Of a DNA stretch of 64,000 nucleotides, positions 3,199 to 7,225 are shown one piece after another (positions within the stretch are counted from its first letter, which is position 1; each line of letters starts with the position of its first letter). The stretch is taken from the NCBI RefSeq assembly GCF_007859935.1, contig NZ_SJPO01000005.1, positions 310,001-374,000 of the forward strand. The letters are read 5' to 3'. The position numbers and the translations under genes are program-made. The stretch comes from Posidoniimonas polymericola. Lineage in GTDB: Bacteria; Planctomycetota; Planctomycetia; Pirellulales; Lacipirellulaceae. The notes beneath the pieces are model-generated. The model did not search any database and was not told the DNA's origin. It worked only from the letters and a program-made list of their open reading frames with translations.

Positions 3199-3434
3199 AC
3201 CAGTCACCAATCGGCTGCCTTGAGGATAGCGAGGAGAGCGCGGCGGGGACGCTAGCTCACATCTTAGCCGGCCCACCGTGCATGGTCCAACTGGCGATGA
3301 CGGCAATCTACGGCAGCGACCCGATGCTGGCAGCACGGCAGCCACCCCCGCGATACCCGCCTAGCCTCGTTCGAGCGTTCTCCCTACAGTTCCCGCAGAC
3401 CCCCTCACCCCGCAGCTCTGCCCCGACTGGTACG

Positions 3435-4661
3435 ATGCGCTCGTTTTTTCTTGCCCTCTGCAGCTGGAGCCTGATCTCTCCGACGGCACTTGCCGCCGGC
3501 GTGCTGGTGCTCTCGCCGGTCGAATTGCAACCGGGCCTGCAGCGGTGGATCGAGTTCCGCACGGGACAGGGCTGGGAGGTCACGACCGCTGCCCCGCTTA
3601 ACTCAGCGGAAGCTATGGCGGGGCAGATTGCCGCAGCGGCCAAGCAGAGCGAGAGCCTAGCGTGCGTCGTTCTGATCGGCGACGCGGCGGCCCCCCACAC
3701 CCGACTAGCGGCTGCTTCGCCCACCGCATACCGCCCATCGGTCGTCAGCGGTGTCTACAGCGGCGAGGCCCACATCGCCACCGACAACCCGTTTGCCGAT
3801 CTCGACGGCGACGACGCCCCCGAGCTCGCGATCGGCAGGATACCCTGCTCATCGCCGGCAGAACTGGCCGGGTACCTGGACCGCGTGATCGCCTTCGAGT
3901 CGGCCTTAGAGCCGCGGCCGACCAACCTCAACATCGTGGCGTCTCCGGGGCGGTTCTCGCCACTGATCGATTCCATGATTGAATTCACAGCTGAGCAGGC
4001 GCTGCGGCAACTCACCCCGACCGGGAGCGAACTCAAGGCGATCTACAATTCGCCTGCGAGCCCCCACTTCCCCAAGACGCCGTTCCGCAACGCGTTGCTG
4101 GCTGGCCTCCGCGAGCCGGCGCTCGCCTGGGTCTACCTGGGCCACGGTTCGACCTGCGGCCTGGACCGCGTCGAACCTCGGGCTCACGCCCACCGGATCC
4201 TGCACTGCGTGGACCTGCCCCGTACCGACGCTCCGACGCCGGGCCCCGTCTTTGCCGCGATGCTGGCCTGTGAGACCGGCCGCATTGACGCCCCCGCCGA
4301 GTGCCTGGCGGAGTCGATGCTGCTGTGCCCACGGGGTCCGCTGGCGGTGCTCGCCAGTTCGCGTGTGTGCATGCCGTACGGCAACAGCGTGCTCGGCATC
4401 GAGCTGTTGAACTGCCTGTTCGAGCCGGGCAAATCCGAGTCGCTGGGCGAGTGCGTCCGGGAGGGCAAGCGGCGGGCACTTCGGGACGACTCGAAACTGC
4501 CGCTCCGCAAATCGGTCCGGCAGATCGGACTTGGGCTCTCGCCCAACGCCGACGCCCTCGACCAAGAAGTCGTCGAGCACGTGCAGATGTACAACCTGTT
4601 GGGCGACCCACTGCTGCGGGTCAAGCAGGTCGCCCCCCTGCAGACGCACTCGGCCGACTAG
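3435..4661 (+). CDS. Secreted C25 (gingipain-type) cysteine peptidase
   Basis: The protein has 408 residues from the ATG that opens a signal peptide (MRSFFLALCSWSLISPTALA). The body looks like a peptidase family C25 catalytic domain: strand and loop LACVVLIGDAAAP, an Asp-rich DLDGDDAPELAIGRIP stretch, the catalytic His in VYLGHGS (His237) and the catalytic Cys in LACETGRI (Cys279), followed by the family's QMYNLLGDPLLRV near the end. No propeptide, adhesin or sorting domain is visible, so it is much smaller than Porphyromonas gingipains. It stands alone, divergent from the PSCyt gene. Arg or Lys specificity cannot be read from the sequence. A caspase-fold protein of other specificity is the alternative. 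Confidence 0.85.
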   Translation: MRSFFLALCSWSLISPTALAAGVLVLSPVELQPGLQRWIEFRTGQGWEVTTAAPLNSAEAMAGQIAAAAKQSESLACVVLIGDAAAPHTRLAAASPTAYRPSVVSGVYSGEAHIATDNPFADLDGDDAPELAIGRIPCSSPAELAGYLDRVIAFESALEPRPTNLNIVASPGRFSPLIDSMIEFTAEQALRQLTPTGSELKAIYNSPASPHFPKTPFRNALLAGLREPALAWVYLGHGSTCGLDRVEPRAHAHRILHCVDLPRTDAPTPGPVFAAMLACETGRIDAPAECLAESMLLCPRGPLAVLASSRVCMPYGNSVLGIELLNCLFEPGKSESLGECVREGKRRALRDDSKLPLRKSVRQIGLGLSPNADALDQEVVEHVQMYNLLGDPLLRVKQVAPLQTHSAD

Positions 4662-4786: not shown

Positions 4787-5485
4787 TCAGACGAGCCGGC
4801 GGCGGCCAAGGGCCAGCAGCAGGCCGAATGCGGCGACCGAGATGGTCGACGGTTCGGGCGTCATCTGTCCCGTGATCGAGATCACGCCGTCGCGAGCCAT
4901 GCCGAAGGTGTTGGTAAAGGCCGTGTCTGTCGCGGTGTAGGAGAAGCTGACTTCGTCCTGGAACGACATGCCCGGCAGAGACTGACCGATCACCGAGCCG
5001 GTGCCGACCACGCTGAAGATCTCGAAACCTGGCCCCGGAACGATCCGGGTGGCGCTGAGCGTGTCGAACGAGATACGCAGGTACGCATCCCCGGCTGCTC
5101 CGTCGCCAGTGCCAACCCACCAGACGAACTCGTTGGTGCCGCTGAGGGTCAGGTTGGTGGTCCCAACCGGGAGGCTGGCCGGTGCGCTCTCGATGAGCAG
5201 GTCGGCGTAGATCCCGTCCGGAGGGGTCATCCAGGAACCGAGTAGCGGGCCGCCGGCCACCTTAAAGCTGGCCAGGTCGGCGTCGTCGGCCTTGCCGGTG
5301 TCCATCTCCCCACTGGGGTTAAGGACGTCCGCGGCGTCGTCGACGATTTTGCCTTCGCTGCCTTTGTACTCGAGGTCAACACCAGCGATGTTGACGTTGA
5401 GCAACGCGGCGGAAGCCTGTCCCGACACAATCGCCAGGACGGTAAGAGCTGCTGCCGCAGGCAGGAAGCTAAAGGTTCGTTTCAT
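4787..5485 (-). CDS. PEP-CTERM sorting domain protein
   Basis: A 232-residue exported protein. The start is the ATG preceded by AAAGGAT, opening a signal peptide (MKRTFSFLPAAAALTVLAIV). The C-terminus has the full sorting signal: PEPST, a hydrophobic helix (ISVAAFGLLLALG) and a basic end (RRRLV). The middle is a beta-rich region with no catalytic motif I recognise. Proteins of this class are exported, cleaved by an exosortase and often associated with extracellular polysaccharide. No exosortase gene is in the window. It is transcribed alone and ends at a clear terminator. Confidence 0.9.
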   Translation of the reverse strand: MKRTFSFLPAAAALTVLAIVSGQASAALLNVNIAGVDLEYKGSEGKIVDDAADVLNPSGEMDTGKADDADLASFKVAGGPLLGSWMTPPDGIYADLLIESAPASLPVGTTNLTLSGTNEFVWWVGTGDGAAGDAYLRISFDTLSATRIVPGPGFEIFSVVGTGSVIGQSLPGMSFQDEVSFSYTATDTAFTNTFGMARDGVISITGQMTPEPSTISVAAFGLLLALGRRRLV

Positions 5486-5625: not shown

Positions 5626-5805
5626 TCACCACGACACCCGCTTGTTGCGTCGTTGGTGGATGCCGTTAGAAGAGTTGGCCTTCCGAGAGCCCCGCGAACG
5701 ACTACGGTCGACATTCGTCGACTTGGCGTTCGATCGCGTGGGTCGTTCCACGCCGCCCTTGCGGTCGCGGAACTCGTCGAATGCTTCTGAGCCAGCTGAC
5801 GCCAT
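5626..5805 (-). CDS. Small basic protein with NGIHxRR C-terminal tail (59 aa)
   Basis: A 59-residue frame starts at an ATG with GAGGG about eight bases upstream. It begins MASAGSEAFDEFRDRKGG, continues through an Arg/Ser-rich middle (DRSRSRGSRK) and ends NGIHQRRNKRVSW. The tail closely matches that of the 60-residue protein encoded about 0.8 kb upstream on the same strand (NGIHRRRRRKVAW, also ending at the Trp). Two independent small genes sharing a tail argue that both are translated. The high Arg/Lys content suggests nucleic-acid or membrane-surface binding, but no known domain is recognised. A longer frame over the same bases is in a different register and lacks the tail. Confidence 0.7.
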   Translation of the reverse strand: MASAGSEAFDEFRDRKGGVERPTRSNAKSTNVDRSRSRGSRKANSSNGIHQRRNKRVSW

Positions 5806-5994
5806 GGCTTAGACCCTCGTATCACCTAAGTTGCTTTACATTCCTCGGAGCAGTCCCTTGCTCACCGGGTCGCGAACCAAACGCGAGGAAACCCGGCGGA
5901 GTGTTGAATCAAGTTGTCGGAATCGGATGCATTGGCTCCCCCGGGTACCTAACTCTTACTTCGCCGCCATGAGCGTCACGGTCGTCCTGCGGGA

Positions 5995-6483
5995 TCAGAC
6001 CGAAGCCCCCAGCGTGTCTTGTTTTGATTTACGCTCGTGCAGACGCCGCGCTTCCGCGCAGGCGGTTGACAGGCTGTCCCAGTCCGCCACGCCCGGCACG
6101 TAGAGCCAGGCGCCGTTCTGCCGGGCCCACAATTCGGTCTCAGGGTCGGCCCGCCGGTCGTAGGCGATGACCAACCCGCCCGACGCACCGTTCAAGATCC
6201 GGAACAGGTCGGACAAGAGTTGCCGATGTAGGGTCGGGGCGATGTCAACAATCGCGAGCCCGAAGCAGTGCAGGAACGCCCGGCGGAGCGAGTCGCGGGG
6301 ATCGTCGCTGGACGCGCAATCCCAACCCGCTCCGCTAGCTGCCCGTTGCATGCCTTCGATGAAGGCATCCTCCCTGCTAACAAGCAGACACTTCCCTGCG
6401 AAACCCGCGGTCCGCCGTCGTGCGTTGCGACGCCCCTCCGCGGACGTCCGCTTCGCGTCGTGCGCTGTTTGCAAAGGACTCAT
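5995..6483 (-). CDS. Degenerate response-regulator receiver-like protein
   Basis: 162 residues, starting at the ATG preceded by GAGGTATTT. After a basic N-terminus (about 30 residues) the pattern of a CheY-like fold is visible: strand GKCLLVSRED, helix FIEGMQRAASGAG, strand WDCASS, helix DSLRRAFLHCF, strand GLAIVDIA with an Asp at the usual phosphorylation strand, helix LSDLFRILNGA, strand GLVIAYD, and strand AWLYVPG. The N-terminal acidic pair is incomplete, so phosphorylation is uncertain. There is no output domain. It lies between two tiny genes that share a C-terminal tail, all on the same strand. The receiver assignment is a fold-level inference. Confidence 0.6.
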   Translation of the reverse strand: MSPLQTAHDAKRTSAEGRRNARRRTAGFAGKCLLVSREDAFIEGMQRAASGAGWDCASSDDPRDSLRRAFLHCFGLAIVDIAPTLHRQLLSDLFRILNGASGGLVIAYDRRADPETELWARQNGAWLYVPGVADWDSLSTACAEARRLHERKSKQDTLGASV

Positions 6484-6645
6484 TTGGAAATACCTCGTAC
6501 GTAAACAAGAATTCGCCAGCTGAAGCACTCGGCAGACGGCCCCGGGGGGGACGGTGGGGCGTGTTGAGCCCCCTTTGCCCCGAGCGCTGCGCCCCCTTTG
6601 GCGGCAGCGCTGGCAGTCTTCAGCCGGCCACTCCATCCGGCTGGA

Positions 6646-6828
6646 TCACCACGCCACCTTCCGACGGCGGCGACGGTGGATGCCGTTGATAGACTGTGGC
6701 GCCTTGCCCCGGGTGCGGCCGCGTTGTGGACGCTGCGTCTTCGACCCGTTCGGACGCCGACGGCTGCCCGCTTCGAATCCCTCGCCGTACTCAAAACCGC
6801 CCTGCTCGTACAGTTGCTCGTTGCTCAT
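6646..6828 (-). CDS. Small basic protein with NGIHxRR C-terminal tail (60 aa)
   Basis: 60 residues from the ATG with AGGAG upstream. The N-terminal half is acidic and aromatic (MSNEQLYEQGGFEYGEGFEA). The C-terminal half is strongly basic (GSRRRPNGSKTQRPQRGR) and ends SINGIHRRRRRKVAW. The last 13 residues match the tail of the 59-residue protein encoded at the other end of this three-gene stretch. Apart from the tail the two proteins differ in sequence, which suggests the tail is the functional signal. Function is unknown. An in-frame ATG nine codons upstream is possible but lacks the ribosome site. Confidence 0.68.
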   Translation of the reverse strand: MSNEQLYEQGGFEYGEGFEAGSRRRPNGSKTQRPQRGRTRGKAPQSINGIHRRRRRKVAW

Positions 6829-7225
6829 TGCCTCGCTCCTTTGGTTGAGAGACACCTACCGATGAAGCGCACCGCATCCGCGGTCGCGCCAAGATTCATA
6901 CTGCGGCTGCACGAAGCACAGCCGTGGCTGGGGTCCCTTTAAAGCGAGAGGCGTGCCAGAAGTGGCGCCGCCCCGCAGGGAGCGGCCGCAAGCACCAATG
7001 GTTAAACAAGTTGCGACCTGGAGAATTCCAGTAAGCCTCAGCGGAGTCCCGATGGACGCCTCCCCAAAGCAGTGATGCGGCCGGCCGAAAAGATTCCGCA
7101 AGTGCTTTAAATTAAACGAGTTACGGCGACTTTCACAATACGTGTGAGCCCTCATCACAATGGTGAAGCAGCGTCGGGTAACGTCGCCAAGTAGGAACCA
7201 GCGGCAGAACGACGGCTCACCAAAC
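6829..7225. other. Non-coding stretch upstream of the 60-residue gene
   Basis: About 400 bases between two minus-strand genes. The open frame across it (6856-7245) has no recognisable composition or motif and runs through the terminator of the isomerase gene. I see no RNA gene or repeat. It presumably holds the promoter of the small basic protein gene. Confidence 0.5.

Follow-up and report, generated by a model that had tools for sequence, protein, structure and literature searches.

The window analysed here, a stretch of 64,000 nucleotides from Posidoniimonas polymericola, contains two very small genes whose products share a C-terminal NGIH tail and which flank a gene for a receiver-like protein. 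This locus raises two questions: (i) whether the mini-ORFs are genuine members of a protein family; and (ii) what such a family might do in its gene neighbourhood. The original prediction had placed both mini-ORFs and, between them, the receiver-like gene on the same strand, and these placements are confirmed (Table 1).

Table 1. Features of the cassette, in window coordinates
Feature	Position	Strand	Basis
small1, canonical NGIH mini-protein, 60 aa	6646..6828	-	ORF, profile match, Shine-Dalgarno AGGAG, dN/dS 0.12
small2, second NGIH mini-protein, 59 aa	5626..5805	-	ORF, synteny in relatives, dN/dS 0.30
Receiver-like (pseudo-receiver) protein, 162 aa	5995..6483	-	Iterated HMM family, AlphaFold2, Foldseek
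Secreted PEP-CTERM protein, 232 aa, signal-peptide-like start, presumed client	4787..5485	-	PF07589, conserved position
Sigma-54-type -24/-12 element TGGCACG-CCTC-TCGCT	6943..6958	-	114 nt before small1
Putative activator site, degenerate dyad GCAAC-N17-CTTGC	6988..7014		Upstream of promoter, read from alignment

The mini-proteins

Both mini-ORFs are preceded by a Shine-Dalgarno-like stretch, and their products end in NGIHRRRRRKVAW (small1) and NGIHQRRNKRVSW (small2). The two proteins had been described as different everywhere but in the tail; actually, their last 33 residues align at 42% identity (E=3e-7; BLASTP, one comparison). In most of the relatives fetched, a tail-bearing small ORF follows the receiver-like gene in the position of small2 which, by alignment and position, is a second, syntenic member of the NGIH mini-protein family. 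The back-translated motif AAYGGNATHCAYNNNMGNMGN has exactly 2 matches in the 6.26-Mb genome, both at the cassette, while its reversed control has 0. Between two genomes of the same genus, dN/dS is 0.12 for small1, 0.30 for small2 and 0.11 for the receiver-like gene; five pairs give 0.06-0.12 for small1, and one small2 pair, with saturated dS, yields no ratio. These values indicate that selection acts at the protein level on all three genes. Chance or artefact as the origin of the mini-ORFs is ruled out by the motif count, the family-wide matches and dN/dS.

Across 33 sequences, the invariant residues are M1, P34, K42, P44, S46, NGIH, R53, R54, K57 and the final W, and M1, S2, Y7, E8 and Y14 are invariant across 27 small1 sequences. 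The first mini-protein has about 58-63 aa and the second about 57-90 aa, the starts of the latter being uncertain. The predicted structure contains a tail helix only (47-59), in a model of low confidence (pLDDT 62.6, pTM 0.20). Searches of Pfam, NCBIfam, PADLOC and PDB gave no significant named family for the NGIH mini-proteins, the best sub-threshold matches being Pfam Lipoprotein_Ltp (15.9 bits; cut-off 23.2) and a PDB entry at E=0.072. Two loci (L131 in G049, L132 in G066) have three NGIH mini-protein genes around a single receiver-like gene, which is followed by a tandem pair of them.

The pseudo-receiver

The receiver-like gene likely starts at 6483 and not at 6636, because the frame of a same-genus relative opens there; the longer frame, 5995-6636, is probably not coding throughout. 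An iterated profile matched 65 ORFs, 54 of them distinct. The AlphaFold2 model (28 sequences) has a pLDDT of 84.8 and in Foldseek it matches receiver domains (best 3crn_B, E=1.9e-6, TMq 0.71); as modelled, the protein has a (beta-alpha)5 receiver fold. With equivalences to CheY judged by eye, the phospho-acceptor-like Asp of beta-3 is kept in 52 of the 54 distinct pseudo-receivers, and the positions of the acidic pair, the beta-4 Ser/Thr and the beta-5 Lys are mostly altered. Hence, of the quintet of a phosphorylatable receiver, the Asp alone appears conserved. Within a WARQLGxWxYLPG stretch, E, R, G and W are invariant (first 54 distinct pseudo-receivers).

At 60 bits or more, the receiver-like profile matches 102/296 genomes of the order sample. 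At E<=1e-4 it matches 245/296, with many matches near 30-38 bits in long frames, which are taken for ordinary response regulators. Two loci (L198, L199) carry divergent receiver-like genes (79 and 74 bits) in whose company no mini-protein was detected; LESRLAL, in an overlapping frame of L198, resembles what we take to be a planctomycete surface-protein start.

Distribution and linkage

The short DNA tail motif is present in 37/43 Lacipirellulaceae genomes, some of its matches (L019, L023, L027, L032, L035, L044) lying in other frames and not being this protein. The small1 profile (33 proteins) has a match in 40/43 Lacipirellulaceae genomes (none in G004, G023 and G032) and in 80/296 genomes of the order sample (Pirellulales), which bears out the idea that the tail marks a family. 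The concern that no other genome encodes such proteins fails, because many related genomes do. Scanning named genomes turned up 27 loci, including those of Lacipirellula, Bythopirellula, Botrimarina, Adhaeretor, a Pirellula sp. assembly and uncultured planctomycetes; from the genus names, we presume that these loci belong to Lacipirellulaceae. Among 397 genomes of the class, the receiver-like profile matches 41, all labelled as the window's own genome or as its genus, family or order. Among 392 genomes of the phylum, a diverse small profile matches one, the window's own, among the matches listed, in a sample that may hold no other known carrier. In consequence, within the samples searched, matches are confined to the order Pirellulales and a planctomycete-wide spread does not look supported. 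A search for plasmid carriage of the cassette gave no match.

In the 296-genome order sample, all 80 genomes with a mini-protein also have a pseudo-receiver (at least 60 bits), and the two genes lie within 1.5 kb of each other in 79/80, the exception (G117) having no such pair on one contig; 194/216 genomes without a small match also lack the pseudo-receiver, and the Fisher test on these co-occurrence counts ignores relatedness. Among the 22 genomes with a receiver and no small match, two groups can be distinguished: (i) G060, G078, G086 and G087, which have a divergent small gene recognised by the tail pattern; and (ii) G175, G178, G238, G268, G286 and G292, which carry a fused form. Genome comparison thus shows a linkage of mini-protein and pseudo-receiver that appears near-obligatory across the order.

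In the fetched loci, rough gene calling gives the order sigma-54 activator, small1, receiver-like gene, small2 and PEP-CTERM gene. For Lacipirellulaceae-type loci, comparison shows the predicted order promoter, small1, pseudo-receiver, small2 and PEP-CTERM gene, with small2 not detected in L066, L067, L081 and L085. These loci were fetched via small1 and, in consequence, its presence in them is circular. As judged from sequence, the cassette is well supported in Lacipirellulaceae. One locus counted among the Lacipirellulaceae-type ones (L143, G084 contig 100) belongs to a genome of another family (f18), which has its own cassette (L142); L143 combines a Lacipirellulaceae-type cassette with a -24/-12 element and may be a transfer or a stray contig.

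Promoter, upstream site and activator

A -24/-12 element (GGCA...T.GC) precedes 33/33 small1 genes, beginning 108-257 nt before the start codon, with a pattern loosened at two -12 bases to take in L030, L038 and L054. In most small1 promoters, the -12 box is TCGC rather than TTGC. With -24 GG and -12 GC at fixed spacing, the element is, by its sequence, a sigma-54-type promoter. The strict form occurs in 19/20 wide loci at -111..-234 of small1, and elsewhere in these 20 loci, from -4 to +6 kb on both strands, there are 7 other matches. In a first scored scan, the element is the top site in 31/33 cases and the second in L034 and L048; the mean best score is 20.65 vs 17.79 in reversed sequence, the reversed control equalling or exceeding the real site for L037 and L061. 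In the window genome, the strict pattern gives 4 matches and its control also 4, and there is therefore no evidence for a wider regulon.

Upstream of the promoter, a GTAAG-N17-CTTAC dyad has its best match at -60..-45 in 20/33 cases, vs 8% in shuffles; since the dyad was derived from the same sequences, its position alone is informative. The window copy is weak, and the scan's best score for the window is at -99.

A gene for a sigma-54 activator lies at most 4.5 kb upstream of the pseudo-receiver, on the same strand, in 25/36 distinct Lacipirellulaceae-type loci, several of the other 11 having short upstream contigs. For the one activator tested against Pfam (L055), the domains found are Sigma54_activat (225 bits) and HTH_8, and a receiver domain is absent. 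The activator orthologue of the window genome (68% identical; the next by score, 43%) is encoded outside the window on the same contig (contig 5 of G000, 275437-276372), at ~40 kb from the cassette. The genes beside it look like what we take to be lpxD and lpxI. The activator orthologue (contig 5 of G000; L213) stands in this lpxD/lpxI-like neighbourhood (by look), as the activator does in relatives whose cassette adjoins the activator; the cassette seems to have moved away from its activator in the window genus.

Outside Lacipirellulaceae, a -24/-12 element precedes the pseudo-receiver in 9/38 loci, vs 6 and 4 in controls and hence not above control, and few loci have a nearby activator; sigma-54 control is therefore not general for the module.

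The downstream partner

The gene after small2 encodes a protein that ends in TPEPSTISVAAFGLLLALGRRRLV and matches PF07589 with E=0.0014 and 19.0 bits, slightly below the cut-off of 20.7; its counterpart in L055 reaches 21.5 bits, above it. With a PEP motif, a hydrophobic stretch, a basic end and a signal peptide (the latter judged by eye), the product has the sequence features of a PEP-CTERM protein. Counting identical receiver sequences once, as for the activators, and taking loci with 2 kb downstream (31/36 and 32/37), a PEP-CTERM stop lies at most 2 kb downstream of the receiver gene in 25/31 Lacipirellulaceae-type loci (control: 33/3254 random positions, 1.0%) and in 16/32 other loci (control: 67/2483, 2.7%); it was not found within that distance in 6/31 and 16/32, respectively. 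In three loci (L181, L188, L191), the receiver is followed by a PEP-CTERM-like ORF, with no tail found.

The downstream protein is not always the same. In BLASTP, 19 hand-picked, end-trimmed downstream proteins form groups without cross-matches: (i) the window with L050 and L051; (ii) L052, L058, L059, L060, L062, L064 and L066 with L057, L141 and L133; and (iii) L055 with L056 and L142. Those of L138, L139 and L140 match no other. This comparison shows a downstream partner that appears to be exchanged between lineages.

In L126, there are Pfam matches to FGE-sulfatase and PEP-CTERM. In the Botrimarina group (L053, L089, L095), the cassette is kept and no PEP-CTERM gene was detected within 2.5 kb downstream; in L095 and L089, an integrase-like gene (by look) follows the cassette. 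Beyond the PEP-CTERM gene of the window, a secreted ORF at 3282-4661 (+) resembles, by look, a C25-type peptidase, and ORFs of similar appearance are found close to the cassette in L049, L058 and L134.

Fused forms

In 13/18 loci examined, all of them in one family (f7), the mini-protein stands in frame ahead of a signal-peptide-like hydrophobic stretch and a long secreted-looking protein. Ten of the fused loci show a PEP-CTERM-like end with PEP visible; those of L214 and L218 have a hydrophobic, basic end, with PEP outside the sequence displayed, and that of L195 is cut off by the contig end. The pattern found no tail in L216, L217 and L219 (long open frames in the profile search), L185 and L193. 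In L190 and L196, there is no Met between the tail and the signal stretch, which favours a single chain.

Among the later-fetched loci, 11, again all f7, have the receiver W replaced by F, and the four of them that bear a tail (L190, L194, L196, L197) have all lost the tail His. In 7/11 no tail was found, L186, L187 and L192 of these having <600 nt downstream. Given these tail-less F loci, the exceptions (W is retained by L195, whose tail reads NGMR, and by L193 and L181, in which no tail was found) and the restriction to one family, this pattern is a hint only.

Relation to known systems

Proteobacterial PEP-CTERM genes have been associated with a -24/-12 element and the regulator PrsR (Haft 2006, PMC1569441). 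In the part of that article available, these DNA motifs are reported in Proteobacteria only, no PrsK/R/T is listed for Rhodopirellula baltica, and further regulatory proteins and DNA motifs are expected to await discovery (PMC1569441). For pepA of Aquincola, the available part of PMC9850573 describes a mapped start and dependence on RpoN1. The cassette resembles the PrsK/PrsR/PrsT systems in that its PEP-CTERM gene is linked to a -24/-12 element, to a Fis-type sigma-54 activator and, upstream, to a putative site for an activator. Nevertheless, it differs from them in several respects: (i) the activators of four relatives score 256-263 bits against the PrsR model TIGR02915, whose cut-off is 502.6; (ii) that of L055 has, by Pfam, no receiver domain; (iii) a separate pseudo-receiver and the NGIH mini-proteins are added; and (iv) the promoter precedes a mini-protein, not the PEP-CTERM gene as in Proteobacteria.

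PspF-type activators consist of AAA+ plus a Fis HTH, with no regulatory domain. The cassette activators share this architecture and length (about 320-345 aa), but the four tested score 235-240 bits vs the cut-off of 443.55 (TIGR02974). The pseudo-receiver has the fold of stand-alone or atypical receivers (CheY-like; the CpaE-type 4dad and 4dn6 are among the fold matches), from which it is set apart by its own WARQLGxWxYLPG signature and by keeping the phospho-acceptor-like Asp alone. Finally, the extended signal peptide regions of autotransporters are conserved cytoplasmic segments before the signal peptide. The fused mini-protein likewise precedes a signal-peptide-like stretch; however, its sequence differs, and the mini-protein is usually separate and paired with a pseudo-receiver. 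A literature search for NGIHRRR gave no match, and no description of the cassette was found by title and abstract start; the term PEP-CTERM has 0 occurrences in the available part of PMC12316311.

Proposed function and rival explanations

We give about even chances to the following reading: a sigma-54-driven cassette serves one PEP-CTERM protein, and the NGIH mini-proteins are adaptors that dock on the pseudo-receiver. The activator would fire and RNA polymerase with sigma-54 would transcribe the cassette. The mini-protein, largely disordered, would then act in the cytoplasm as an adaptor. For docking it would use its helical, Arg-rich tail (NGIHxRRxxKxxxW), with the conserved E-W-R-G-W stretch as the docking site on the pseudo-receiver, and its body would serve as a spacer of variable sequence. 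Together, the two would govern production of the PEP-CTERM protein, or when or where it is exported, acting in trans in the window and in cis in the fused forms. The docking, binding and export roles are those that we infer. The original prediction had read the tail as a recognition tag or an RNA- or protein-binding element, and it is the protein-binding part that fits the data (the tail is the sole predicted helix, in a low-confidence model, and in 79/80 genomes the mini-protein gene lies beside that of a pseudo-receiver).

An RNA- or DNA-binding role is rather unlikely. Under it, the NGIH proteins would regulate the cassette by binding its promoter or mRNA through the Arg-rich helix, and the pseudo-receiver would be a co-regulator. 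The very basic, predictedly helical tail and the location in a sigma-54 operon with an activator agree with this, and the small1-to-receiver spacer is predicted to fold somewhat more stably than shuffled sequence (mean z about -1.6; from -0.03 to -4.3 across 12 loci, with L051 at -4.3). Yet it would be strange for such a regulator to be fused in frame with a signal-peptide-like stretch and a secreted protein, no Rfam family was found in 8 loci (tRNAs only), and no common hairpin could be seen after small1, each of 33 spacers folding differently (by eye). The mini-ORFs might also encode leader peptides that control the next gene by stalling the ribosome with their conserved C-terminus, in keeping with conservation that peaks in the residues next to the stop and with the larger gene after each mini-ORF. 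But M1, S2, Y7, E8 and Y14 are invariant at the N-terminus of the 27 small1 sequences, dN/dS is 0.06-0.12 over small1, stop-less fused versions exist, and the spacers (120-382 nt) after the mini-ORFs have no common hairpin that could be seen, which makes a leader role very improbable.

That the pseudo-receiver is the detached regulatory domain of a receiver-less activator, a split PrsR in which the mini-proteins gate the contact, is quite improbable, even though the tested activator lacks a receiver domain, 25/36 Lacipirellulaceae-type loci encode an activator just upstream, and PrsR, which has both domains, is tied to PEP-CTERM genes in Proteobacteria (available part of PMC1569441): most loci outside Lacipirellulaceae have a pseudo-receiver without a nearby activator, and the two are ~40 kb apart in the window genome. 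Size, charge and the C-terminal ...SW could also suit a small basic protein with a housekeeping role, on the ribosome or elsewhere, that is present in the operon by happenstance. Its occurrence in part of one order only, its place next to the pseudo-receiver in 79/80 genomes and the absence of PDB relatives at E below 0.07 make this explanation barely credible.

The adaptor reading is favoured over DNA regulation and over a leader peptide because the fused tail lies on the cytoplasmic side before the signal stretch, while the pseudo-receiver is constant and the client changes. A further step, tentative and somewhat doubtful, is that the NGIH mini-proteins may be founding examples of a new class of export adaptors, in which the pseudo-receiver would read the Arg-rich tail and the PEP-CTERM precursor would be marked for controlled synthesis or placement, the adaptor being free or a pre-signal-peptide domain depending on the lineage.

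Significance

Most of the cassette's meaning lies in parts absent from the original prediction: its promoter and activator, the PEP-CTERM gene and the fused forms. Proteins as small as these can be lost to length cut-offs. Fusion provides a natural experiment, one element being found in some lineages in trans and in others in cis, ahead of a signal peptide, and, in consequence, a role of the mini-protein in surface-protein export is directly testable. The cassette has the look of a module dedicated to control or export, next to a surface-anchored protein; it is a candidate planctomycete counterpart of proteobacterial PEP-CTERM control, with its promoter, its activator and two unnamed protein families.
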